NCBI GenBank assembly: GCA_902500785.1
Contig: CABVRW010000024.1
Coordinates: forward strand, 1 to 40,565
Length of the DNA stretch: 40,565 nt
Reading direction: 5' to 3'
Source of the DNA: an uncultured Nitrospira sp.
GTDB lineage: Bacteria; Nitrospirota; Nitrospiria; Nitrospirales; Nitrospiraceae
Each line of letters opens with the position of its first letter. Within the stretch, counting starts at the first letter, position 1. This document shows, one piece after another, positions 27,764-40,548 of this stretch. The notes beneath the pieces were generated by a model. That model saw only the letters and a list, made by a program, of their open reading frames with translations. It was not told the DNA's origin and did not search any database. The position numbers and the translations under genes are program-made.

Positions 27764-29023
27764 ATGGCGACGAAACGAACACTGACTCAAGTCGAGCAGG
27801 CCTTGCGTGAAAAGACTCGTGAGGTGGATGCTCTTCATCGCATCAGTGAGTCGATCAGCAACACGCTTGATTTGGAGGCGGTGCTCCGGCATATCGTGGA
27901 CATGGTCGTTGAAGTGACCAAAGCCGATGCCTGTTTGTTGTATCTGCTGTCCGATAACCGGGACGAACTCATTCTGCGGGCCTCAAAGAACCCACACCCG
28001 AAGTTGATCGGCCGGATCACCATCGGGATGGGAGAGGGAATCACCGGGTGGGTGGCGCGAGAGCGGACGCGTGTCGTCATCCCGAATACCGCCAGTGATG
28101 ACCCGCGCTTCAAGTTCTTTCACAACCTCCCTGAAGATCGCTACCAGGCATTCGTCTCCGTTCCGATTACGACCAAACAGGAAGTGGTCGGAGTGATCAA
28201 TGTGCAGCACAAGCGGTCGCGCCGGTACCGGCCGGACGAGTTGGCGCTTCTGTCGACGATCGCCACGCAGGTCGGCGGAGCCATTGAGAACGCGAGACTG
28301 TACGATCAGATGACACGCAAGGCGCTGCAGCTTGATACATTGTCCCAAGTATCGGAAACCGTGTCGTCGAATCGGCTGATCGAAGACGTGCTGCAACTTA
28401 TTGTGACCATGACGGCGCAAATGATGGGATCGAAAATTTGCTCCATCATTCTTCTGGATCAGACGACGGGTGAACTTCGAATTACTGCCACGCAAAGTTT
28501 GAGCGAACAATACCGGCGCAAGCCCAATGTGAAGGTCGGCCAGAGCATCAGCGGTCGTGCCGTTCAGGATCGTCGCCCGATCATCGTTCCGGATGTTACC
28601 AAAGAAGGCTCCTATATGTATCCGGAAATGGCCGCGAAGGAAGGCCTCTGCTCACTCCTCTGTGTGCCGATGCTCGTGCGGGAGAAAGCTATCGGGGTCA
28701 TCAATACGTATACCTCCAGGCCACATACCTTCACGGCTGAGGATGTCAAGCTGATGCAGGCCATTGCCAATCAGGCCGCGATTTCTATTGAACACACAAC
28801 TTTGCTGGAAAAATCGTTTGAGATGCAGGAAGCCTTACAGGTCCGCAAATTGCTGGACCGGGCCAAGGGATATCTCATGCGATCGAAACGGCTGTCGGAA
28901 GACGAGGCGTTCAAACTGATCCAGCGGCAGAGTATGGATCTTCGCAAGTCCATGCGAGAGATCGCGGAGGCCATTCTCTTGGCCGGTGAAATCGAAGATC
29001 GGGCCGATAAAAACCGAGGGTAG
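27764..29023 (+). CDS. GAF-GAF-ANTAR protein, probable RNA-binding antiterminator
   Basis: 419 aa from ATG 27764. A short coiled start is followed by GAF domain 1 (about residues 30-180; ADACLLYLLSD, GEGITGWVARERTRVVIPN, SVPITTKQEVVGVINV) and GAF domain 2 (about 195-340; GQSISGRAVQDRRPIIVPDV). A C-terminal ANTAR domain spans about 356-408, with the typical core LDRAKGYLMRSKRLSEDEAF. ANTAR domains bind paired RNA stem-loops with six-base loops and prevent termination (known from AmiR, NasR and EutV). The GAF domains probably sense a small molecule or partner, not identified. It lies 7 bp after aroB. A matching RNA target lies at 30138-30238. Confidence 0.93.
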   Translation: MATKRTLTQVEQALREKTREVDALHRISESISNTLDLEAVLRHIVDMVVEVTKADACLLYLLSDNRDELILRASKNPHPKLIGRITIGMGEGITGWVARERTRVVIPNTASDDPRFKFFHNLPEDRYQAFVSVPITTKQEVVGVINVQHKRSRRYRPDELALLSTIATQVGGAIENARLYDQMTRKALQLDTLSQVSETVSSNRLIEDVLQLIVTMTAQMMGSKICSIILLDQTTGELRITATQSLSEQYRRKPNVKVGQSISGRAVQDRRPIIVPDVTKEGSYMYPEMAAKEGLCSLLCVPMLVREKAIGVINTYTSRPHTFTAEDVKLMQAIANQAAISIEHTTLLEKSFEMQEALQVRKLLDRAKGYLMRSKRLSEDEAFKLIQRQSMDLRKSMREIAEAILLAGEIEDRADKNRG

Positions 29024-30086: not shown

Positions 30087-30116
30087 TTGACAGCAGCGCC
30101 CTGAAAAGCGTATACA
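30087..30116 (+). promoter_or_regulatory. Sigma-70 promoter of the porin-urt operon
   Basis: TTGACA (30087-30092) is a perfect -35 box. After 18 bases comes TATACA (30111-30116) as -10. Transcription would start near 30123, leaving a leader of about 175 nt before the porin ATG at 30298. The -10 lies within a palindrome (30109-30131). Confidence 0.65.
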
Positions 30117-30131
30117 CCCCGCTTGTATACG
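30109..30131 (+). promoter_or_regulatory. Palindrome over the -10 box, candidate operator
   Basis: CGTATACA (30109-30116), a 7-base spacer, then TGTATACG (30124-30131): a perfect 8-bp inverted repeat. The left arm contains the predicted -10 and the right arm covers the predicted start site, so a dimeric repressor bound here would block the promoter. I do not recognise it as a known regulator's site. Confidence 0.55.
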
Positions 30132-30137
30132 GCAGGG

Positions 30138-30202
30138 GTCCTGACAACGGCGTCCGGACTTTGTTGCAGACGCTACGAGTGCAAAGGACAATGACGTCCT
30201 TT
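30138..30202 (+). promoter_or_regulatory. ANTAR-type tandem stem-loops (P1 and P2) in the porin leader
   Basis: P1: 30138-30145 pairs with 30152-30159 (8 positions, one T-C mismatch) around the hexaloop AACGGC (30146-30151). P2: 30183-30189 pairs with 30196-30202 (7 perfect pairs) around the hexaloop AATGAC (30190-30195). Both loops have A at position 1 and G at position 4, the hallmark of RNA bound by ANTAR dimers. A 23-nt linker separates them. The 3' arm of P2 is part of the 5' arm of the following terminator, so P2 and the terminator cannot form together. A GAF-GAF-ANTAR protein is encoded about 1.1 kb upstream. Confidence 0.82.
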
Positions 30203-30238
30203 TGGTCCAATGGTTGGACCGGAAGGGCGTTTTTTTTT
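30194..30238 (+). terminator. Leader intrinsic terminator (conditional)
   Basis: A 17-bp stem with three G-U pairs (30194-30210 with 30214-30230), a TGG loop, then nine T residues (30230-30238). It lies between the promoter and the porin start on the same strand, so it would end transcription before the operon unless prevented. The first nine bases (30194-30202) are shared with stem-loop P2, giving mutually exclusive structures. Confidence 0.88.
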
Positions 30239-30297
30239 GCGCGCTGGCTCTCCGGTCTGGTTCATTCCAATCGTGTGTAACCAGGAGGGCTATCAGG

Positions 30298-31665
30298 ATG
30301 AGTGCAGGAATGTCACGAAGACTCCTACTGGGGGCGATCATGATGACGGTCGCCGCCACGGCTCCGGTAATGGCAGAGGACCAGAGTGCGGGAGAAGCGG
30401 CGGGAGCCGGTCGCCTGAGCCGTGAAGTGGAGACTCCCCCCGCGGTGATTTGCGGCGGATGCGTCACTCCCAGCTTCGCGGGCGAAGGGAAAGGAAGCAT
30501 CGTTCCCTATGGTCGTATCGAGCTGGATGCGATCTACAGCAACAGAAACACAAATCCACTCGATCCTGGGCAGTTCAACGGCTATGCCACCGCTGCGGGA
30601 AAAAGCAGCAACGCGTCCTCCACGCTCAACCCTCGTTATAGCGTGTTCGGCCTGCGAGCCGACCGGACGGACGGGAAACATACCCTGACTGGTGTCGTCG
30701 AAGCGGATTTTTACAGTCAGACCGACAATGCCGGCAATATCTCACCTCGCCTGCGGTTGGCCAACGTCAAATATTCTCCCAACAATAGTCGGACGACCAT
30801 CACGGCAGGCATGGATTGGACGCCGATCATGTCGTCTCATCCAAACCTGATCGATTTTTCTATCATGGGTTATAACGGGAACTTGTGGCAGCGTCTCCCG
30901 CAGATTACCGTGAAGCATCAATTTACCGACAACGTGAACGGCCTGTTGACGGTCATGCGATTCGAGCGCGGATTGTCGGCCATCCAACCGCAGACGCAGC
31001 GCCGAACCTTTCAGGGAGCCGGCGCCGCCGCGGCCACACCGGGCAGTTGCGGAAGCAGCGGATTTGCCTGTTCGGAAAACGCATTCAACGATCCAGTGCA
31101 GATGCCCTATGTCGGAACCCGGTTTGCCTACATGGGAACGGGTGATCGGGCGGGCTACATGGTGGCATTGAATGCCGCGTTTCGCCATTATCGATCCGCG
31201 CCGACGGCCGGAGGAATTCCTGCCGGCAACGATATCAATTCGTATCTCGTGGGGGCGGAACTCGCGGTGCCTTTGACCAACCGGTTGAGATTCACCGGTG
31301 AGATTGCTTATGGGCAAGCGCTGGGGGTTGAGTTTTTCCGATACGGACAGGAGCGAAATCTGGGCACGGGCAAGTCGATCCGGACCGTGGTCGGCTGGGG
31401 AGAGTTGGATTATGCCTACGATCGGCAGCTCACGCTCATCGCCGGCTATGGGTTCGATAACCCGCTGAACGCCGACCTGCGAGGCACCAGCGCCGGGCCT
31501 GACACCCAATATGTCCTCAATCATCGGACCTACCTGACGGCCGTCCGGCATATTTGGGGTGATTTGTACACGTCGTTCGAGTGGAATCACCTCATGACCG
31601 AATGGTCCACCGGGGAGCATTTTGCAGGAGACAATTTCATGCTCTCAACTTGGTACAACTTTTAG
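30298..31665 (+). CDS. Outer-membrane porin, FmdC-like (urea / short-chain amide uptake)
   Basis: 455 aa from ATG 30298 (AGGAGG 9 nt upstream). A signal peptide ending near APVMA-ED is followed by a porin-type beta barrel: alternating polar and aromatic strands (VPYGRIELDAIYSN, YSVFGLRADRTDGKHTLTGVVEADFY) and a C-terminal phenylalanine (LSTWYNF) for barrel insertion. It is first in the operon before urtABCDE, which suggests outer-membrane passage of urea or amides; FmdC porins in Nitrospira are annotated this way. A CGGC pair near residue 55 is unusual for a porin. The frame is open further upstream, but that part covers the terminator. Confidence 0.85.
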   Translation: MSAGMSRRLLLGAIMMTVAATAPVMAEDQSAGEAAGAGRLSREVETPPAVICGGCVTPSFAGEGKGSIVPYGRIELDAIYSNRNTNPLDPGQFNGYATAAGKSSNASSTLNPRYSVFGLRADRTDGKHTLTGVVEADFYSQTDNAGNISPRLRLANVKYSPNNSRTTITAGMDWTPIMSSHPNLIDFSIMGYNGNLWQRLPQITVKHQFTDNVNGLLTVMRFERGLSAIQPQTQRRTFQGAGAAAATPGSCGSSGFACSENAFNDPVQMPYVGTRFAYMGTGDRAGYMVALNAAFRHYRSAPTAGGIPAGNDINSYLVGAELAVPLTNRLRFTGEIAYGQALGVEFFRYGQERNLGTGKSIRTVVGWGELDYAYDRQLTLIAGYGFDNPLNADLRGTSAGPDTQYVLNHRTYLTAVRHIWGDLYTSFEWNHLMTEWSTGEHFAGDNFMLSTWYNF

Positions 31666-31694: not shown

Positions 31695-33059
31695 ATGACC
31701 TCTCCGAAACCACAGAGTACAGACCAAGAGATTTCCACGAGCAGGGTTGAGGGCCTTCCGTCGCGCCGCGATTTCCTCTTGCAGAGTTCACGAACCGCGG
31801 CGGGCATCGGGGTAGCGGCGTTGCTGGGCAACCTGGGCCATTGGGCTTTATCTTATGGGGCCGACAAGGAACCGATCAAGGTCGGGGTCTTGCACTCGCT
31901 CAGCGGCACGATGGCTATCAGTGAAGTGTCGTTGAAGGATGTCGTGTCGATGGCGGTGGAAGAAATCAACGTGAAGGGCGGCCTGTTGGGACGCCCGTTG
32001 AAGCTGGTGATCGTCGATCCAGCTTCGAACTGGGACTTGTTTGCAGAAAAGGCCAAACAATTGTTGGTACAAGACAAGGTGGCGGTGGTCTTTGGCTGCT
32101 GGACGTCGGTCAGCCGGAAATCCGTCTTGCCGGTGTTTGAAAAGAACAACGGTTTGCTCTTTTATCCTGTGCAGTATGAAGGCGAAGAGTGCTCACGGAA
32201 TGTGTTCTACACCGGGGCGGCGGTCAACCAGCAGGCTGTGCCGGCAGTCGAATATCTGATGAGCAAAGAAGGCGGCGGGTTAAAAAAGTTCTATCTTCTG
32301 GGGACCGACTATGTCTATCCACGGACGACGAACAAGATTCTCCGCGCCATGCTGTTGGCCAAGAAAGTTCCCGCCGCTAACATCATGGAAGAGTACACTC
32401 CGTTCCATCATCAAGATTACCAAACCATCGTGGGAAAGATTAAGAAGTTTGCGGCCGGTGGCGGCGCCTGCGTCATCAGCACGATCAACGGTGACAGCAA
32501 TGTGCCGTTCTACAAGGAGTTTGCCAATCAAGGTCTACGAGCCGAAGATGCGCCGATCATGGCTTTTAGCGTCGCGGAAGATGAGCTGCGCGGAATGGAC
32601 AAGACGGCGCTGGTCGGACATCTCGCGGCCTGGAATTACTACCAAAGCGTCGACACGCCGCAGAACAAGCAATTTGTGGCGAACTTTAAGGCCTATTGCA
32701 AAAAGCATAATTTGCCGGATGGAGATAAGCGCGTCACCGACGATCCGATTGAGGCCGCCTATTTTGGGGTACATGTCTGGAAGCAAGCGGCCGAGAAGGC
32801 GGGCAGCATTGAGGTGGACGCGGTTCGTAAGGCCATCTATGGACAGAAGTTCCTGGCGCCGGGCGGGGAGATCATGATGGACGTCGCCAACCATCACACG
32901 AACAAACCGGTGCTGATCGGGGAAATTCTCAAGGACGGCCAATTTAAGGTCGTGTGGCGATCGAAGGGTTTGGTCAAACCGGAACCGTGGAGTGAGTATA
33001 CGAATCCGGAAAAAGGGTGTGATTGGGTGACGCATCAAGGAACCTATAAGAAAGCCTGA
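31695..33059 (+). CDS. urtA: Urea ABC transporter, substrate-binding protein UrtA
   Basis: Periplasmic urea-binding protein. It is 454 aa from ATG 31695 with AAAGGAGT upstream. The N-terminus SRRDFLLQSSRTAAGIGVAAL looks like a twin-arginine signal. The mature part begins EPIKVGVLHSLSGTMAISEVSL and contains VVFGCWTSVSRKSVLPV and QYEGEECSRNVFYTGAAVNQQ, characteristic of UrtA/FmdD. It lies 29 bp after the porin with no terminator, so it is probably in the same transcript. Confidence 0.95.
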   Translation: MTSPKPQSTDQEISTSRVEGLPSRRDFLLQSSRTAAGIGVAALLGNLGHWALSYGADKEPIKVGVLHSLSGTMAISEVSLKDVVSMAVEEINVKGGLLGRPLKLVIVDPASNWDLFAEKAKQLLVQDKVAVVFGCWTSVSRKSVLPVFEKNNGLLFYPVQYEGEECSRNVFYTGAAVNQQAVPAVEYLMSKEGGGLKKFYLLGTDYVYPRTTNKILRAMLLAKKVPAANIMEEYTPFHHQDYQTIVGKIKKFAAGGGACVISTINGDSNVPFYKEFANQGLRAEDAPIMAFSVAEDELRGMDKTALVGHLAAWNYYQSVDTPQNKQFVANFKAYCKKHNLPDGDKRVTDDPIEAAYFGVHVWKQAAEKAGSIEVDAVRKAIYGQKFLAPGGEIMMDVANHHTNKPVLIGEILKDGQFKVVWRSKGLVKPEPWSEYTNPEKGCDWVTHQGTYKKA

Positions 33060-33108: not shown

Positions 33109-34647
33109 ATGAGGCGCATCGTTGGGTTGGCACTGGTCTGGTTCATGGTGTGGGTCGTGACAGGCGGATGGGCGGCGGAGGCGCATACAGGCGCCTCCCC
33201 GCCGATGCAGCTTGAGCAGGCGTTGAAAGATTTGTCGAGCGAAGAAGAGACGACGCGAGACCTGGCGATTCATGCGCTGATCGAACAGGGAGACTCGACC
33301 TGGTTGCCACGCTTGGATGCGTTGCGGGCCAACGCAGATAGAAGTCTGCGCATGGCGATCAAGCCGGTGGCCGATGCCTGGAAACACCGCGCCAATCTGA
33401 CTAGTCCCGATGCCGATACGCGCAGGTCGGCGGCGACTGATCTGGGAACCAGCGGGCGGACGGTGGCTATTCCTTGGCTGGAGGCCGCGACGGCCACCGA
33501 ATCGCATCGTTGGGTGCGATATGCGATGGAGGAGTCGATACAACTCCTGAAACTCGCCTCGGATGATCCGGTGGTCAAGGCGCAGGCGGCGGCAAAGCTG
33601 GGTGAGCTGCGCAGCCAGAATGCGGTTCCAGCGTTGAAGACATTAGCGCAAGGCGCCGGTGAACCGAATAGCTCCGAGGATCAGAATCATGTCGCGCGGG
33701 TGGCGGCTGTCGCGATTGATCAGATTGAAACCTGGAACGTTTGGTCCACGGCGATCGAAACGTTATTTCGCGGTCTCAGTCTGAGTTCGATTCTCCTCAT
33801 CATGTCCGTCGGACTTGCGATTGTTTTCGGGTTGATGGGCGTCATCAACATGGCGCACGGCGAGCTGATGATGATCGGAGCCTATGCCACCTTTGTCATG
33901 CAGGAATGTTTTAAGTTATATGTTCGTCCAGACTGGTTCGACGCGTACTACCTTGCGGCCCTTCCGGCCGCATTTCTGGCAGCGGCCTTGTTCGGATTGG
34001 TCCTGGAAGCGACCGTCATTCGTTTCCTCTATGGCCGCCCGCTCGAAACGATGCTGGCGACCTGGGGAGTCAGTCTGATCCTGATTCAGGGGGCGCGAAT
34101 TTATTTTGGCGATTTGACGGCGGTCGCCGCGCCGACCTGGCTCAATGGCGGCACGCAAGTCATGGTGGGGGTGTTCTTGCCGTTCAATCGTCTGTTCATC
34201 ATCGGGCTCTCCATCCTTTGTGTCACCGGGATTTACCTGTTACTGTTTCGGTCGAGCGTTGGGTTGCGAGTGCGGGCTGTCACGCAGAACCGCAACATGA
34301 GTGCGTGCCTGGGCATTCCTACCAGGAAAGTCGATGCCTACACCTTTGCCTTCGGTTCCGGCCTTGCCGGCATCGCCGGTTGGGCCCTGACCCTGGTCGG
34401 GAATGTCGAGCCGGGACTCGGGCAGAACTACATCGTGGACTCGTTCATGGTGGTGGTGACGGGCGGTGTCGGAAAACTCGCCGGAACTATCATTGCCTCG
34501 TTGGGGATCGGAGGATTGAATAAACTGATGGAGCCCAGTTTTGGAGCGGTCTATGCAAAGGTGTTGATCCTCGTGCTGGTGATTCTCTTCCTGCAGCGAC
34601 GACCTTCGGGGCTGTTTTCAGTCAAGGGGCGTCACGCCGAGGGGTAA
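33109..34647 (+). CDS. urtB: Urea ABC transporter permease UrtB, long form
   Basis: LivH-type inner-membrane permease. It is 512 aa. An N-terminal signal sequence (about 1-24) precedes a HEAT-repeat-like helical domain (about 30-205, LKDLSSEEETTRDLAIHAL), probably periplasmic. The permease core with about eight membrane helices follows (IVFGLMGVINMAHGELMMIGAYATFV, FAFGSGLAGIAGWALTLVGNV). The long form with this extra domain is usual for UrtB as opposed to LivH. GAGGAGGG lies upstream. Confidence 0.95.
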   Translation: MRRIVGLALVWFMVWVVTGGWAAEAHTGASPPMQLEQALKDLSSEEETTRDLAIHALIEQGDSTWLPRLDALRANADRSLRMAIKPVADAWKHRANLTSPDADTRRSAATDLGTSGRTVAIPWLEAATATESHRWVRYAMEESIQLLKLASDDPVVKAQAAAKLGELRSQNAVPALKTLAQGAGEPNSSEDQNHVARVAAVAIDQIETWNVWSTAIETLFRGLSLSSILLIMSVGLAIVFGLMGVINMAHGELMMIGAYATFVMQECFKLYVRPDWFDAYYLAALPAAFLAAALFGLVLEATVIRFLYGRPLETMLATWGVSLILIQGARIYFGDLTAVAAPTWLNGGTQVMVGVFLPFNRLFIIGLSILCVTGIYLLLFRSSVGLRVRAVTQNRNMSACLGIPTRKVDAYTFAFGSGLAGIAGWALTLVGNVEPGLGQNYIVDSFMVVVTGGVGKLAGTIIASLGIGGLNKLMEPSFGAVYAKVLILVLVILFLQRRPSGLFSVKGRHAEG

Positions 34648-34663: not shown

Positions 34664-35812
34664 ATGGCAGAATCATTGGCCCCACGGTTGAATGCGGAGC
34701 GAAACGAAGGTCCCGTCTTTTGGGTCGTCGGGTTCGTGCTACTGTTTGTGCTTCCGGTCCTCAACGTGTTGCCGGCGGAGGATTCCTGGCTGCATGTCTC
34801 CGATTTCGCCTTGAACCGATTCGGGAAGTTCCTGGCTTTTGCCATCCTGGCGCTCGGCCTCGATCTGATCTGGGGATACGCAGGCATCCTCAGCCTGGGA
34901 CAGGGCGTGTTCTTCGGGTTAGGGGCATACTGCATGGGCATGCACCTGATGCTCGCGATCGGAAGCGAGGGCGTCTACGGCAGTGCCTTGCCGGATTTCA
35001 TGGTCTGGAATCAGGTCACCGCATTGCCGTTTTTCTGGGAGCCGTTCCATAGCTTCACCGCCGCTATCCTGGCCGGCCTGTTGGTGCCGGCGGGCTTCGC
35101 GCTGCTGTTCGGCTTTCTCGCCTTCCGCAGCCGGATTCGGGGAGTATATTTCGCGATCATTACGCAGGCCTTGGCTCTCATGGCGTGGCTCATCTTCAAT
35201 CGGAATGAAACGAATCTCGGCGGAACGAACGGTCTGACGGATTTCAAGACAATCCTGGGCTTTCGGCTGTCCGAGCCAGGGACGCAATTCGCGCTCTATG
35301 TCATCACCGTGTTGTGCCTGGGCGGAGCCTACCTGCTCTGCCGCTGGATCATCACGTCGCGCGCCGGCCGAGTGTTGATCGCCATTCGAGACAGTGAGCA
35401 ACGCGTCCTATTTTCAGGCTACTCGCCGGCCAACTACAAATTGTTCGTCTTTGTGATATCGGCCGCGCTGGCGGGGCTGGCCGGAATGCTGTATGTCCCG
35501 CAGGTGGGGATCATTACTCCGGCGCAGATGGGCGTCCTGCCGTCCCTCGAAATGGTGGTCTGGGTGGCGGTGGGCGGCCGCGCGACCCTGGTCGGCGCCA
35601 TTGTCGGAGCGGTGGGCGTCAATCTAGGCCGTAGCATTCTCACCAACCATTTTCCGGAATTATGGCCGTTTTTTCTCGGCGGGCTCTTCGTCGTGGTCGT
35701 GCTGCTGTTTCCAGACGGAGTCATGGGTCTCACCAGGACCGTGAGTGAAAAGATCGCAAAGCGGAACGTCCGTTTATCAAAAACCCCAGCCGTCGAAGAG
35801 GAACAGGCGTGA
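34664..35812 (+). CDS. urtC: Urea ABC transporter permease UrtC
   Basis: LivM-type second permease, 382 aa, about ten membrane segments. Family features are ILALGLDLIWGYAGILSLGQGVFFGLGAYCMGMHL near residues 62-96 and AALAGLAGMLYVPQVGIITPAQMGVLPSLEMVVWVAVGG near 265-303. A GTG start for urtD overlaps its stop. 16 bp after urtB. Confidence 0.95.
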   Translation: MAESLAPRLNAERNEGPVFWVVGFVLLFVLPVLNVLPAEDSWLHVSDFALNRFGKFLAFAILALGLDLIWGYAGILSLGQGVFFGLGAYCMGMHLMLAIGSEGVYGSALPDFMVWNQVTALPFFWEPFHSFTAAILAGLLVPAGFALLFGFLAFRSRIRGVYFAIITQALALMAWLIFNRNETNLGGTNGLTDFKTILGFRLSEPGTQFALYVITVLCLGGAYLLCRWIITSRAGRVLIAIRDSEQRVLFSGYSPANYKLFVFVISAALAGLAGMLYVPQVGIITPAQMGVLPSLEMVVWVAVGGRATLVGAIVGAVGVNLGRSILTNHFPELWPFFLGGLFVVVVLLFPDGVMGLTRTVSEKIAKRNVRLSKTPAVEEEQA

Positions 35813-36576
35813 CGGAACAGGGCTCCATTATCTATTTGGAAGGCGTCACCGTCGATTATGACGGCTTCAAAGCGTTGAACAATCTGAATTTCATCGTCAA
35901 TCATCGTGAATTGCGGGTAGTGATCGGGCCGAACGGCGCCGGGAAGACGACGTTGCTGGATGTGATTTCAGGCAAGACGAAACCGGCGGCCGGTCGCGTC
36001 ATTTTCGGGAAAGACACTGATCTCATCGGTATGCGGGAATACGAGATCACCCAGCTGGGGATCGGGAGAAAATTCCAGGCGCCCTCGATTTACGGCAATC
36101 TTACGGTGTGGGAGAATCTCGACCTATCGTTGAGTCGCGTCAGCAAGGGCGTGTTGTTTACCTTGCGAGGTCGGTCCACGGCTGCGGAACGGACGCACAT
36201 CAATGAGGCTTTAGCGACGATCGGTCTCACGGAGCAGGCCTTTCTGCGCGCGGGCGCTCTCTCTCATGGTCAGAAGCAATGGCTTGAGATTGGCATGGTC
36301 ATGTTGCAGGATCCTGAGCTGCTGCTGGTCGATGAGCCGGTGGCCGGCATGACCGACGAAGAGACCGCACAAACGGGGCGGTTGCTCCAGTCGCTGGCGG
36401 AGAAACATGCGATCGTCGTGATCGAGCACGATATGGAGTTTGTTCGGCAAATCGCGCGGACCGTGACCGTGTTGCACGAGGGGACCGTGATCTGCGAGGG
36501 GTCGGTGGAAAAAATACAAGCTGATGAGCGGGTGAGAGAGATTTATCTCGGTCGCCAGAAGGTGGCGCATGCGTAA
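35809..36576 (+). CDS. urtD: Urea ABC transporter ATPase UrtD
   Basis: LivG-type ATPase, 255 aa, GTG start overlapping the urtC stop. Walker A is [12 protein letters not shown], the Q-loop region is GRKFQAPSIYGNLTVWENL, the signature motif is degenerate (ALSHGQKQWLEI, with H in place of G), Walker B is LLLVDEPVAGMTDEE and the switch is VIEHDMEFVR. The SHGQ signature is seen in UrtD-type proteins. Confidence 0.95.
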   Translation: MTEQGSIIYLEGVTVDYDGFKALNNLNFIVNHRELRVVIGPNGAGKTTLLDVISGKTKPAAGRVIFGKDTDLIGMREYEITQLGIGRKFQAPSIYGNLTVWENLDLSLSRVSKGVLFTLRGRSTAAERTHINEALATIGLTEQAFLRAGALSHGQKQWLEIGMVMLQDPELLLVDEPVAGMTDEETAQTGRLLQSLAEKHAIVVIEHDMEFVRQIARTVTVLHEGTVICEGSVEKIQADERVREIYLGRQKVAHA

Positions 36577-36630
36577 GCGGCCTCGTCGGAGACTTTGCTG
36601 AACATCCTGGGAGAGTCATCGAACACGATT

Positions 36631-37341
36631 ATGCTGCGGCTTGAGAAGGTCAACGTCTACTATGGCGAGAGCCACATTCTTCGGAACGTCTCATTTCACA
36701 TCGAGGCGGGCCAGGTGGCCTGCGTGATGGGCCGGAATGGCGTCGGTAAGTCGACGACGTTGAAAGCAATTATGGGCCTGTTGCCGGTAGGCAGCGGACA
36801 AGTCCTCTTCGACGGAGCGGACATCACCAAGGAGGCGACCGACCGGCGGGCCAGGAGTGGCCTCGCGTACGTGCCGCAAGGTCGGGAAATCATTCCGCAT
36901 CTGACGGTCCGAGAAAATCTCCAGTTGGGCTATTGGGCGCGTGGAAATGGGACGAATGGAGATTCAGAGAAAGCCGCCTTCGACGAAGTCTATACGCTGT
37001 TTCCCAAACTTACACAGATTCTAGAGCGGCCGGGTGGGGTGCTGAGCGGTGGAGAACAACAGCAATTGGCCATCGGTCGAGCCATCTTGTCGAGCCCGAA
37101 AGTCCTGTTGTTGGACGAACCGACGGAAGGCATCCAACCCTCGATCGTTGATCAGATTGAAGATGTCATCATCGGTTTTAAAACCGCGCGTCGATTTGCC
37201 ATCGTCCTAGTGGAGCAGGGTCTGCACTTCGCGGCACGGCTGGCGGACAGCTACGTGGTGATGGCTAAGGGAGCGGTCATGGCAGCGGGGAAAAAGGATG
37301 CGCTCAGCGCCGAGATGGTGAAGCAGCACTTGACGGTGTAG
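36631..37341 (+). CDS. urtE: Urea ABC transporter ATPase UrtE
   Basis: LivF-type ATPase. It is 236 aa from ATG 36631 (MLRLEKVNVYYGESHILRNV, the usual UrtE start). An in-frame TTG at 36595 would add 12 residues with a badly spaced ribosome-binding site. Walker A is GRNGVGKSTTLK, then YVPQGREIIPHLTVRENL, signature LSGGEQQQLAI, Walker B LLLDEPTEGIQPS and switch LVEQGL (Gln for His, usual in this subfamily). Last gene of the urt set. Confidence 0.95.
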   Translation: MLRLEKVNVYYGESHILRNVSFHIEAGQVACVMGRNGVGKSTTLKAIMGLLPVGSGQVLFDGADITKEATDRRARSGLAYVPQGREIIPHLTVRENLQLGYWARGNGTNGDSEKAAFDEVYTLFPKLTQILERPGGVLSGGEQQQLAIGRAILSSPKVLLLDEPTEGIQPSIVDQIEDVIIGFKTARRFAIVLVEQGLHFAARLADSYVVMAKGAVMAAGKKDALSAEMVKQHLTV

Positions 37342-37544: not shown

Positions 37545-37913
37545 ATGCTGCTTGTGGCCTGTCTCCTCACGGTGGCGGCTTGCGCAACTGGAAACTACAC
37601 CCCGCTGGCAGGGGCCGATAAGGATCAAGTCGAGCAGCTCAAGGAGAACGTCTATCGCGTTGAGTATCGCGTCAGTTCATTTACGTCGCAGGAGCAGTTG
37701 GATGCCTACCTGCGCCGGCGTTGTGCTGAATTGACGTTACGGGAAGGGTACGATTTTTTTCATCTGGCGCAGCGGGCTGACGTCCTGGCCCTGTCACGGC
37801 GAACTTCGATGACGGTGACGATGTATAAGGGATCGAAGCCAACCGGTGCGGTCGATCTGCATGATGCCCGGGACGTCTTGGCCAAGCCGGCGATCCTGCT
37901 AAAAAATGAATGA
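37545..37913 (+). CDS. Small putative lipoprotein (CC0125/CC1285-like)
   Basis: 122 aa from ATG 37545. A hydrophobic start ending in VAAC suggests a lipoprotein signal with the cysteine near residue 13. The mature part has YRVEYRVSSFTSQEQLDAYLRRRCAELTLREGYDFF, which resembles the CC0125/CC1285 lipoprotein family of unknown function (from memory). The ATG has no ribosome-binding site; an in-frame CTG at 37527 has AGGGGA 7 nt upstream and would add a basic n-region. It sits between urtE and ureA. Confidence 0.8.
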   Translation: MLLVACLLTVAACATGNYTPLAGADKDQVEQLKENVYRVEYRVSSFTSQEQLDAYLRRRCAELTLREGYDFFHLAQRADVLALSRRTSMTVTMYKGSKPTGAVDLHDARDVLAKPAILLKNE

Positions 37914-37939
37914 CGAATCATGTGTGACGAGGGCCGGAT

Positions 37940-38242
37940 ATGCATCTGACACCGCGTGAACAGGAAAAGCTGTTGATCTATGTGGCGGCGAATTTGGCCA
38001 AGGATCGCAAAGCGCGAGGCCTAAAGCTTAACCACCCGGAAGCGGTCGCGTTCATCACCGCCGAGATTCTGGAAGGCATTCGCGACGGCAAGTCGGTGTC
38101 GGAATTAATGAGTGCCGGCGCCACGCTGCTCACTCGAAAAGATGTCATGTCGGGTGTGCCGGAAATGATCCCGGAACTTCAGGTCGAAGGCACGTTTCCG
38201 GATGGCACCAAGCTGGTGACGGTGCATGAGCCGATCCGATAG
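37940..38242 (+). CDS. ureA: Urease subunit gamma
   Basis: Smallest subunit of the urease trimer, 100 aa, the standard length. [47 protein letters not shown] and the C-terminal [18 protein letters not shown] are signature stretches. The separate gamma, beta and alpha genes are the common bacterial layout. Urease hydrolyses urea to ammonia and CO2 in the cytoplasm. Confidence 0.97.
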
Positions 38243-38250
38243 GTGAAGGA

Positions 38251-38718
38251 ATGAAGACGAAAGCCAAGACCGTGGTGAGGAAATCTCGACCAAAAGCGCC
38301 CGCCTCAGTGAGTCGGCGCGATGGACTCCAGCCTGCAGCCGTCATCCCCGGCGAAGTCATTCTCGGCGAAGGTGATATCATTGCGCTGCATGGTCGGCAG
38401 ACAGTCGAACTCACCGTATCGAATACCGGCGACAGGCCGATTCAGGTGGGGTCGCATTGCCACTTCTTTGAGGCCAATCGGGCGCTGATGTTTGATCGCG
38501 AGAGGGCCTATGGATTCCGGTTGCAGGTGCCGGCTGGGACGGCGGTGCGGTTTGAACCTGGTGAGTCGAAGCGGGTGACGCTGGTCGCGCTTGGCGGCCA
38601 TCGTGAGGCTTACGGCATCAATGGTTTGGTGAATGGCAAGCTGGATGATCCGATAGTGCGGGAACGAGCTCTGGCCAGCGCTAGAGAAGCAGGGTTCTTG
38701 AGCAAGCGGCCTGGCTAG
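38251..38718 (+). CDS. ureB: Urease subunit beta, with N-terminal extension
   Basis: 155 aa. The conserved core starts at [11 protein letters not shown] (about residue 33) and includes [24 protein letters not shown], with Cys at a site that is often Tyr, and [17 protein letters not shown]. Most UreB proteins are near 100-110 aa and begin at this core; here about 30 basic residues ([18 protein letters not shown]) precede it and about 15 follow. It lies 8 bp after ureA. Confidence 0.95.
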
Positions 38719-38820
38719 TCCCGTTGCTCGTAGAACGCCCACGATGAAACAGTGCTCGTCCCATGCGCGCAGTCGGGCCCAACCAGGCCGCTGCTCCAAT
38801 GCTCTGAGAGGCTGGGGATA

Positions 38821-40548
38821 ATGAACATTCCGCGACGCCAATATAACGATCTCTACGGCCCCACCGCTGGGGATCGCATTCGTCTGGCCGATACGGAGCT
38901 GTTGGTCGAGATCACGCGCGATCTGACCGTGCCTGGGGAAGAGGCCAAGTTCGGCGGCGGCAAGGTCATTCGCGACGGCATGGGACAATCACCAGCCGCG
39001 ACGCGGGCAAAGGGCGGGCTGGATCTCGTCATCACCAATGCCGTTATCATCGACTGGTGGGGCGTGGTGAAGGCCGACATCGGGATTCGCGACGGACGAA
39101 TCACGGGGATCGGGAAAGCGGGGAACTCCGATCTGATGGACGGCGTGACACAGGGCATGGAAATCGGCCCTTGCACGGAGGTGTTGTCGGCTGAAGGCAA
39201 AATCATCACGGCCGGCGGGATCGATTCGCACATCCATTTCATCTGCCCGCAAATCATCACTGAGGCGTTGGCCAACGGGTTGACAACGCTGATCGGTGGC
39301 GGGACCGGCCCGGCCACGGGCACCAATGCGACGACCTGCACGCCCGGGCCCTGGAACATTCATCGCATGCTGGAGGCGGCGGACGGCTTCCCGATCAATC
39401 TTGGATTTCTAGGCAAAGGGAATTCTTCCTTGCCTGAAGGGTTGAACGAACAGGTCGAGGCGGGTGCCATCGGGTTAAAGCTGCATGAAGACTGGGGAAC
39501 GACGCCGGCAGCTATCGATACCTGTTTGAGCGTGGCAGAGCGCTATGACGTTCAGGTGGCGATCCATACCGATACGATCAACGAAGCCGGCTTTGTCGAG
39601 GATACGATCAAGGCGTTCAAAGGCCGGACGATTCACTCGTTCCATACCGAGGGTGCTGGCGGAGGACATGCTCCCGACATCATCAAAGTCTGCGGTGAGG
39701 CGAATGTGTTGCCTTCCTCGACGAATCCCACCATGCCCTTCACGGTCAATACGATGGATGAACATCTGGATATGTTAATGGTGTGTCACCATCTGAATCC
39801 GCGGGTGCCGGAAGATATCGCGTTTGCCGAATCGCGCATCCGCCGGGAAACGATCGCGGCCGAGGATATTCTGCACGACATGGGCGCGATCAGCATCATG
39901 TCGTCCGACTCGCAGGCGATGGGACGGGTGGGCGAGGTCATCATCCGCACCTGGCAGACGGCGCACAAGATGAAAGTGCAGCGGGGGCACCTGTCTGAGC
40001 GCGGCATCGACCAGCAGGATGGCCGGCATGACAACTGGCGCGCGCGGCGGTATATCGCGAAGTATACGATCAATCCCGCCATCGCGCATGGGGTGGCTCA
40101 CGAGGTCGGGTCGGTTGAAGTCGGGAAACTGGCCGATTTGGTATTGTGGAAACCGGCCTTTTTCGGCGTGAAGCCTGAGATGGTCATCAAGGGCGGATTT
40201 CCCATGTCGGCGGCCATGGGCGATCCCAATGCATCGATTCCGACGCCGCAACCGGTGCTGACAAGACCCATGTTTGGCAGTTTCGGCCGGGCACCCTTCT
40301 CCACGAGCGTGACCTTTCTCTCTCAGAAAGCCTTGGAGCGAGAGGTGCCGAAACAACTGGGATTGCAGAAGCGCGTCGCTGCGGTCAAAGGTTGTCGGAG
40401 CATCGGTAAGCGAGATTTGAAATTGAACGATGCGTTGCCGCAAATCGAGGTGGATGCTGAAACCTACGAAGTACGCGCGGACGGTGAGCTTCTCACATGT
40501 GAGCCGGTAGCAGTGTTGCCGATGGCGCAGCGCTACTTCCTGTTTTAA
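38821..40548 (+). CDS. ureC: Urease subunit alpha (catalytic)
   Basis: Ni-dependent catalytic subunit, 575 aa from ATG 38821 ([22 protein letters not shown]). Nickel ligands and active-site residues are all visible: HSHIHF (two His), the carbamylated Lys in GLKLHEDWG, His in [12 protein letters not shown], His in [12 protein letters not shown], the flap motif MVCHHL (Cys and His) and Asp in SSDSQAMGR. An in-frame start at 38752 would add 23 unrelated residues. The stop is 17 bases before the window end; accessory genes ureEFGD are not seen here. Confidence 0.98.

Follow-up and report, generated by a model that had tools for sequence, protein, structure and literature searches.

A predicted ANTAR-dependent attenuator before the porin-urtABCDE unit of an uncultured Nitrospira, one probable target in a nitrogen-assimilation regulon

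The leader of the porin-urtABCDE unit in an uncultured Nitrospira is very likely a transcription attenuator that depends on an ANTAR protein. A first-pass annotation of this DNA had proposed an ANTAR antitermination leader for porin-urt, and our analysis supports it: relatives keep both hexaloops, the promoter and the terminator whose folding excludes that of the second hairpin, and the adjacent GAF-GAF-ANTAR gene, 1.1 kb upstream of the leader, encodes the only ANTAR-domain protein of the source genome. Since further leaders of this type stand before nadE-OMP-amtB-glnB-glnD and FNT-cynS-nirA, porin-urt is best seen as one target within nitrogen assimilation, not as a urea-only switch.

The window, that is, the whole 40.6-kb stretch of DNA analysed, carries the following genes on its plus strand. 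The GAF-GAF-ANTAR protein, the proposed antiterminator, is encoded at 27764–29023 (PF03861, 69.5 bits against a cut-off of 27.3). The unit itself opens with a gene for an outer-membrane porin-like protein of 454 residues (30298–31665), which has a strand-rich, low-confidence model and found no match in family or structure libraries. It continues with urtA, for the substrate-binding protein of a urea ABC transporter (31695–33059; TIGR03407), urtB (33109–34647; TIGR03409), urtC (34664–35812; TIGR03408), urtD (35809–36576; TIGR03411) and urtE (36625–37341; TIGR03410), all above cut-off. After a gap of about 200 nt follow a CC0125-family lipoprotein gene and ureA, ureB and ureC (37545–40548), with family matches for the lipoprotein, ureA and ureC, and ureB assigned by its position between them; a common transcript with urt is a possibility only. 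On the minus strand, antisense to ureC, Rfam’s 5_ureB_sRNA matches at 38967–39262, a match probably due to conservation of the coding sequence of that urease gene and not to a real antisense RNA.

The promoter, the two hairpins P1 and P2 and the terminator named in the earlier annotation are all in the sequence upstream of the porin, with both loops positioned as it had read them. The promoter, TTGACA-N18-TATACA, occupies 30087–30116, which agrees with the start predicted near 30123; its motif, spacing and distance to P1 are alike in nearly all porin leaders, and our sigma-70 scan missed it because that scan demands a T at position 6. P1 (30137–30160) pairs 30137–30145 with 30152–30160 in eight pairs, with a single T·C mismatch at 30142/30155, around the hexaloop AACGGC (30146–30151). 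The linker of 22 nt (30161–30182) leads to P2 (30183–30202), the antiterminator, whose seven perfect pairs (30183–30189 with 30196–30202) enclose the hexaloop AATGAC (30190–30195). Both six-base loops have A1 and G4, and in both hairpins a C-G and then an A-U pair close the stem under the loop (GAC-loop-GTC). The intrinsic terminator (30193–30238) has an 18-pair stem (30193–30210 with 30214–30231) and a run of nine T (30230–30238); the porin ATG lies at 30298, with AGGAGGGC at 30283. P2 and the terminator have about 10 bases in common (30193–30202) and compete. Their mutual exclusion, already claimed from the first reading, was borne out by folding: with the 3′ part removed both P1 and P2 fold, and in the full leader the terminator takes the place of P2. 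The full-leader fold reaches −44.3 kcal/mol, against −30.3 (s.d. 3.3) for shuffles. RNAalifold recovered the helices of P1 and P2 unprompted from 22 leaders. A conserved linker hairpin that would draw P1 and P2 together was considered and rejected; it is foldable in the window, yet RNAalifold leaves the linker unpaired over the 22 leaders.

In outline, RNA polymerase would start near 30123, and P1 would fold first and P2 next. An active GAF-GAF-ANTAR protein is predicted to bind the A1/G4 hexaloops and would hold P2 folded; the 3′ strand of P2 would thereby be kept from the terminator, and transcription would proceed into porin-urt. With the protein inactive, the far more stable terminator would form and transcription would stop at about 30235. 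Across the leaders, the terminator hairpins range from −19 to −36 kcal/mol and P2 from −5 to −9 kcal/mol; in 14 of 14 porin leaders and 22 of 22 nadE leaders, the T-run hairpin takes up the 3′ strand of P2. These values suggest that the default is probably termination and that a bound protein would have to hold P2. From the energies and from EutV, NasR and AmiR we infer the presumed off-by-default state, the direction of control and the binding.

In the predicted model of the GAF-GAF-ANTAR protein (mean pLDDT 79), both GAF domains can be made out, with a long helix and an ANTAR end that is also helical. Among the residues with which EutV contacts the hexaloop, R142, K143, K149, E160, M172 and R175 are identical here, Y164 is replaced by F, K147 by R and N173 by D, and the R168 and R177 positions differ; the identical and aromatic contact positions are invariant in 12 orthologues, down to 70% identity. 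An ANTAR protein was found in 93 of 101 genomes, nearly always exactly one in each. Four genomes that have urtA and lack the ANTAR protein (G052, G063, G066, G069) show no convincing leader.

A covariance model trained on 22 leaders (21 porin and one nadE, L027) found matches in 79 of the 101 genomes, with porin-urt, nadE (with OMP, amtB or glnD after it), amtB, cynS and FNT recurring downstream. The source genome has matches before nadE-OMP-amtB-glnB-glnD (E 8.6e-5) and before FNT-cynS-nirA (E 2.3e-4), where another hexaloop-terminator unit follows in tandem; the match before OMP-amtB is weaker (E 0.15). N. defluvii has leaders before nadE and before FNT-cynS-nirA; N. moscoviensis has a nadE leader and, by eye, a tandem leader before an nrtA-like gene. 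Weak hits in N. defluvii (812 and 2417 kb) and N. moscoviensis (769 and 1602 kb) were discounted, because none of the reference nitrogen genes lies there and the ones inspected lack the layout. The same ANTAR protein very probably controls a set of nitrogen-assimilation operons, namely nadE-OMP-amtB-glnB-glnD, FNT-cynS-nirA and urt, together with the nrtA-like gene in N. moscoviensis. With copies of the switch before genes for ammonium, nitrite/cyanate and NAD synthesis, nitrogen uptake in this nitrifier group is probably set by one RNA-binding protein.

For a regulon of nitrogen-assimilation genes, the signal is most likely the internal nitrogen status, rather than urea. The first-pass annotation had spoken of control over urea or amide uptake, and an ANTAR attenuator responding to urea (or amide) itself would fit the fact that most genomes of the genus that carry urt have the ANTAR gene beside it. 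We consider this unlikely, since nadE-OMP-amtB-glnB-glnD and FNT-cynS-nirA also have the motif in front of them, and the protein also occurs in genomes devoid of urt, where the leaders stand before nadE, amtB and FNT-cynS-nirA. Furthermore, in distant families the ANTAR gene adjoins nadE-glnD, the leader and these two genes following it within about 100 bp (L132, L133, L134, L218, L222); this arrangement suggests an older, perhaps ancestral, core of the regulon to which urt was added later.

As to what might be sensed, the EI-Ntr and NifA GAF domains are the closest to the first GAF domain among named families. Because the ligands of GAF domains vary widely, this likeness is a lead only, which may point to glutamine or 2-oxoglutarate. 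The GAF domain of EI-Ntr is needed for that protein to bind glutamine (PMC4848567). No protein in 21 genomes reached the NtrC cut-off and many NtrC relatives are present, an absence that is only suggestive as the cut-off may be tuned to Proteobacteria. Tentatively, we raise the possibility that in the Nitrospirales the single GAF-GAF-ANTAR protein acts as an RNA-level master regulator of nitrogen assimilation, filling the role of the proteobacterial NtrC, sensing a nitrogen-status metabolite through a GAF domain and using long-linker targets that EutV does not tolerate.

Several targets depart from the porin leader in their build. Tandem leaders before FNT-cynS-nirA or an nrtA-like gene (C80:1163–1336 in the source genome, L127; L128:13196; L255:353–542; L258:9618–9822) consist of a full P1-P2-terminator unit and, behind it, one more hexaloop hairpin that has a separate terminator. 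In several Nitrospira MAGs (L170, L172, L173, L178, L183, L188, L195), a gene adjoining the ANTAR gene encodes a large sensor-like protein, two-domain and extracellular by eye, and has in front of it an ANTAR-type leader whose terminator is weak or different. ANTAR leaders also stand before a small lipoprotein-like gene (L130:3198–3254, L141:284–342, L142:7590–7650), which in two cases lies just upstream of a porin-urt unit that keeps its own leader. Two genomes of one distant genus (G062, G083; L143, L145) have a seven-base P2 loop, AATGAAC, which departs from the hexaloop rule and keeps G4. Finally, between nadE and OMP-amtB of the source genome (C24:46097–46144, L126:6098–6145) there is a short-linker dual hexaloop, a type seen also at L146, L150, L152, L157, L129 and in N. 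moscoviensis (L254:14084). Its linker is 4–7 nt and its loops are 25 nt apart, as conserved in six genomes, in five of which no T-run hairpin using P2 was detected; it may work through translation, RNA stability or Rho.

This OMP-amtB target, which has no detectable overlapping terminator, bears on whether ANTAR binding might have the opposite sense, or work mainly through RNA stability or translation, so that porin-urt would be repressed. Actinobacterial ANTAR targets, which often overlap the ribosome binding site (PMC8164766), offer a precedent. For the porin leader itself this is improbable: in that of every relative, P2 and a strong T-run terminator exclude each other, which is the arrangement of the eut and nas leaders.

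Attenuation with release by the ANTAR protein draws further support from conservation. Within the genus, all 15 genomes whose urtA is full or nearly full have the porin leader and none of the 12 lacking the gene does, a count that leaves out G006, whose urtA has decayed, and the incomplete G028, both leader-positive; the leader persists where porin identity falls to about 60%. In 22 leaders, A1, A2 and G4 of P1 and A1, A2, G4 and C6 of P2 are invariant. As most of these were selected by a detector that demands A1 and G4, the covariance-model alignment gives the fairer count: A1 in 85/90 and G4 in 88/89 for P1, A1 in 80/90 and G4 in 90/90 for P2. The C-G and A-U closing pairs are nearly invariant across leaders. 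The annotation had proposed looking for covariation in related leaders; besides the conserved hexaloops, compensatory changes exceed those in shuffles. P1 has 16 cells altered on both sides, compared with 6.3 in shuffles, none of 500 of which reached 16. Over 85 distinct leaders from all targets there are 168 both-sides changes versus 53, although that alignment was fitted to the model and leans towards structure. Covariation is strong in both P1 and P2. G006, with only fragments of urtA left, has a broken P1 closing pair, which is what relaxed selection would lead one to expect.

Two cautions that accompanied the first reading are partly resolved. The P1 mismatch is confined to the window species and its closest relative (G020), other leaders having G-C or G-U there, and the long linker, being conserved across the group, is no defect. 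Several facts count against an attenuator: the 22-nt linker itself, the differing R168/R177 positions, and N. moscoviensis urtA, which has no recognizable leader in front. In addition, one order-level family (f2) has the protein and no covariance-model match, and in three incomplete genomes, G051 among them, leader matches occur without an ANTAR match.

Could the hairpins serve another RNA-binding factor or a riboswitch ligand? ANTAR binding is predicted here and the long linker is unlike that of eut. Nevertheless, the A1/G4 loop code and the closing pairs fit ANTAR targets, the leader co-occurs with the genome’s only ANTAR protein, and an Rfam search of the leader returned no ANTAR-target or riboswitch match (a miRNA match was put down to chance), making this improbable as well. 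Hairpins with A1/G4 hexaloops are small motifs, but chance pairings or an ordinary terminator of the upstream gene may be dismissed, given that a scan of both strands of the window for two stable A1/G4 hexaloop hairpins with an overlapping terminator found exactly one site, the porin leader, and none in 200 dinucleotide-preserving shuffles, that conservation extends to 60% porin identity with covariation and a promoter, and that the upstream gene lies on the opposite strand.

Nitrospira are major nitrite oxidisers and complete ammonia oxidisers; as to which this genome belongs to, ammonia monooxygenase gave no match, though the control likewise gave none. In the accessible literature we found no account of how Nitrospira regulate uptake of urea, ammonium, cyanate or nitrite. 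By title and abstract, no publication joining ANTAR and Nitrospira was on this subject, most subscription journals and supplementary tables lying outside that scope, and a 2025 paper on Nitrospirales comparative genomics does not mention antitermination. The annotation’s statement that such control is not known to have been described for urea uptake in Nitrospira-type bacteria holds as far as we found. From other bacteria, ANTAR targets before genes for PII and for ammonium, nitrite and urea transporters, as well as multi-operon nitrogen regulons, were reported in 2012 (PMC3369931). The main text of that paper does not name Nitrospira, and N. defluvii may be among the genomes scanned there. 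What appears to be new is the Nitrospira case, in which neither the sensor architecture nor the linker length has so far been characterised. PMC3369931 states that, as of 2012, ANTAR proteins with GAF or PAS domains were uncharacterised, a gap that work on the GAF-GAF-ANTAR protein would fill. The one protein, the RNA code as defined here and the listed operons are all testable in a purified system without Nitrospira genetics.

Among known systems, GnfR of Geobacter is an ANTAR-type nitrogen-gene regulator that acts by antitermination, as a two-component response regulator. It is named in PMC7962754. NasR, acting on the nasF leader of Klebsiella oxytoca (PMC7496416), is like the present protein a one-component regulator, with sensor domains fused to ANTAR and a nitrogen-assimilation target; its sensor, however, is a NIT nitrate domain and not two GAF domains. 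The predicted nitrogen regulon of Desulfotomaculum acetoxidans (PMC3369931) likewise places many ANTAR leaders before nitrogen genes in one genome, but in another phylum and with another set of operons. The eut leaders of Enterococcus faecalis (PMC3369931, PMC8934654) share the two A1/G4 hexaloop hairpins, the same closing pairs, which are required in eutP, the overlap of P2 with the terminator and the ANTAR protein; EutV differs in being a receiver-ANTAR response regulator. Their linkers are also shorter, 5–12 nt as opposed to 22 nt here and mostly 20–34 nt in relatives, and extending a eut linker to 14 nt, or by 20 nt, left little or no function (PMC3369931, PMC8934654). Over the targets measured in this study, linkers span 13–34 nt, mostly at least 20, the OMP-amtB target being the exception. 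Actinobacterial ANTAR RNAs (PMC8164766) mostly lack a terminator and often sit at the ribosome binding site, but they too have dual A1/G4 hexaloops and were accepted as targets with linkers of 2–25 nt, a range that takes in the 22-nt linker lying beyond that of eut.
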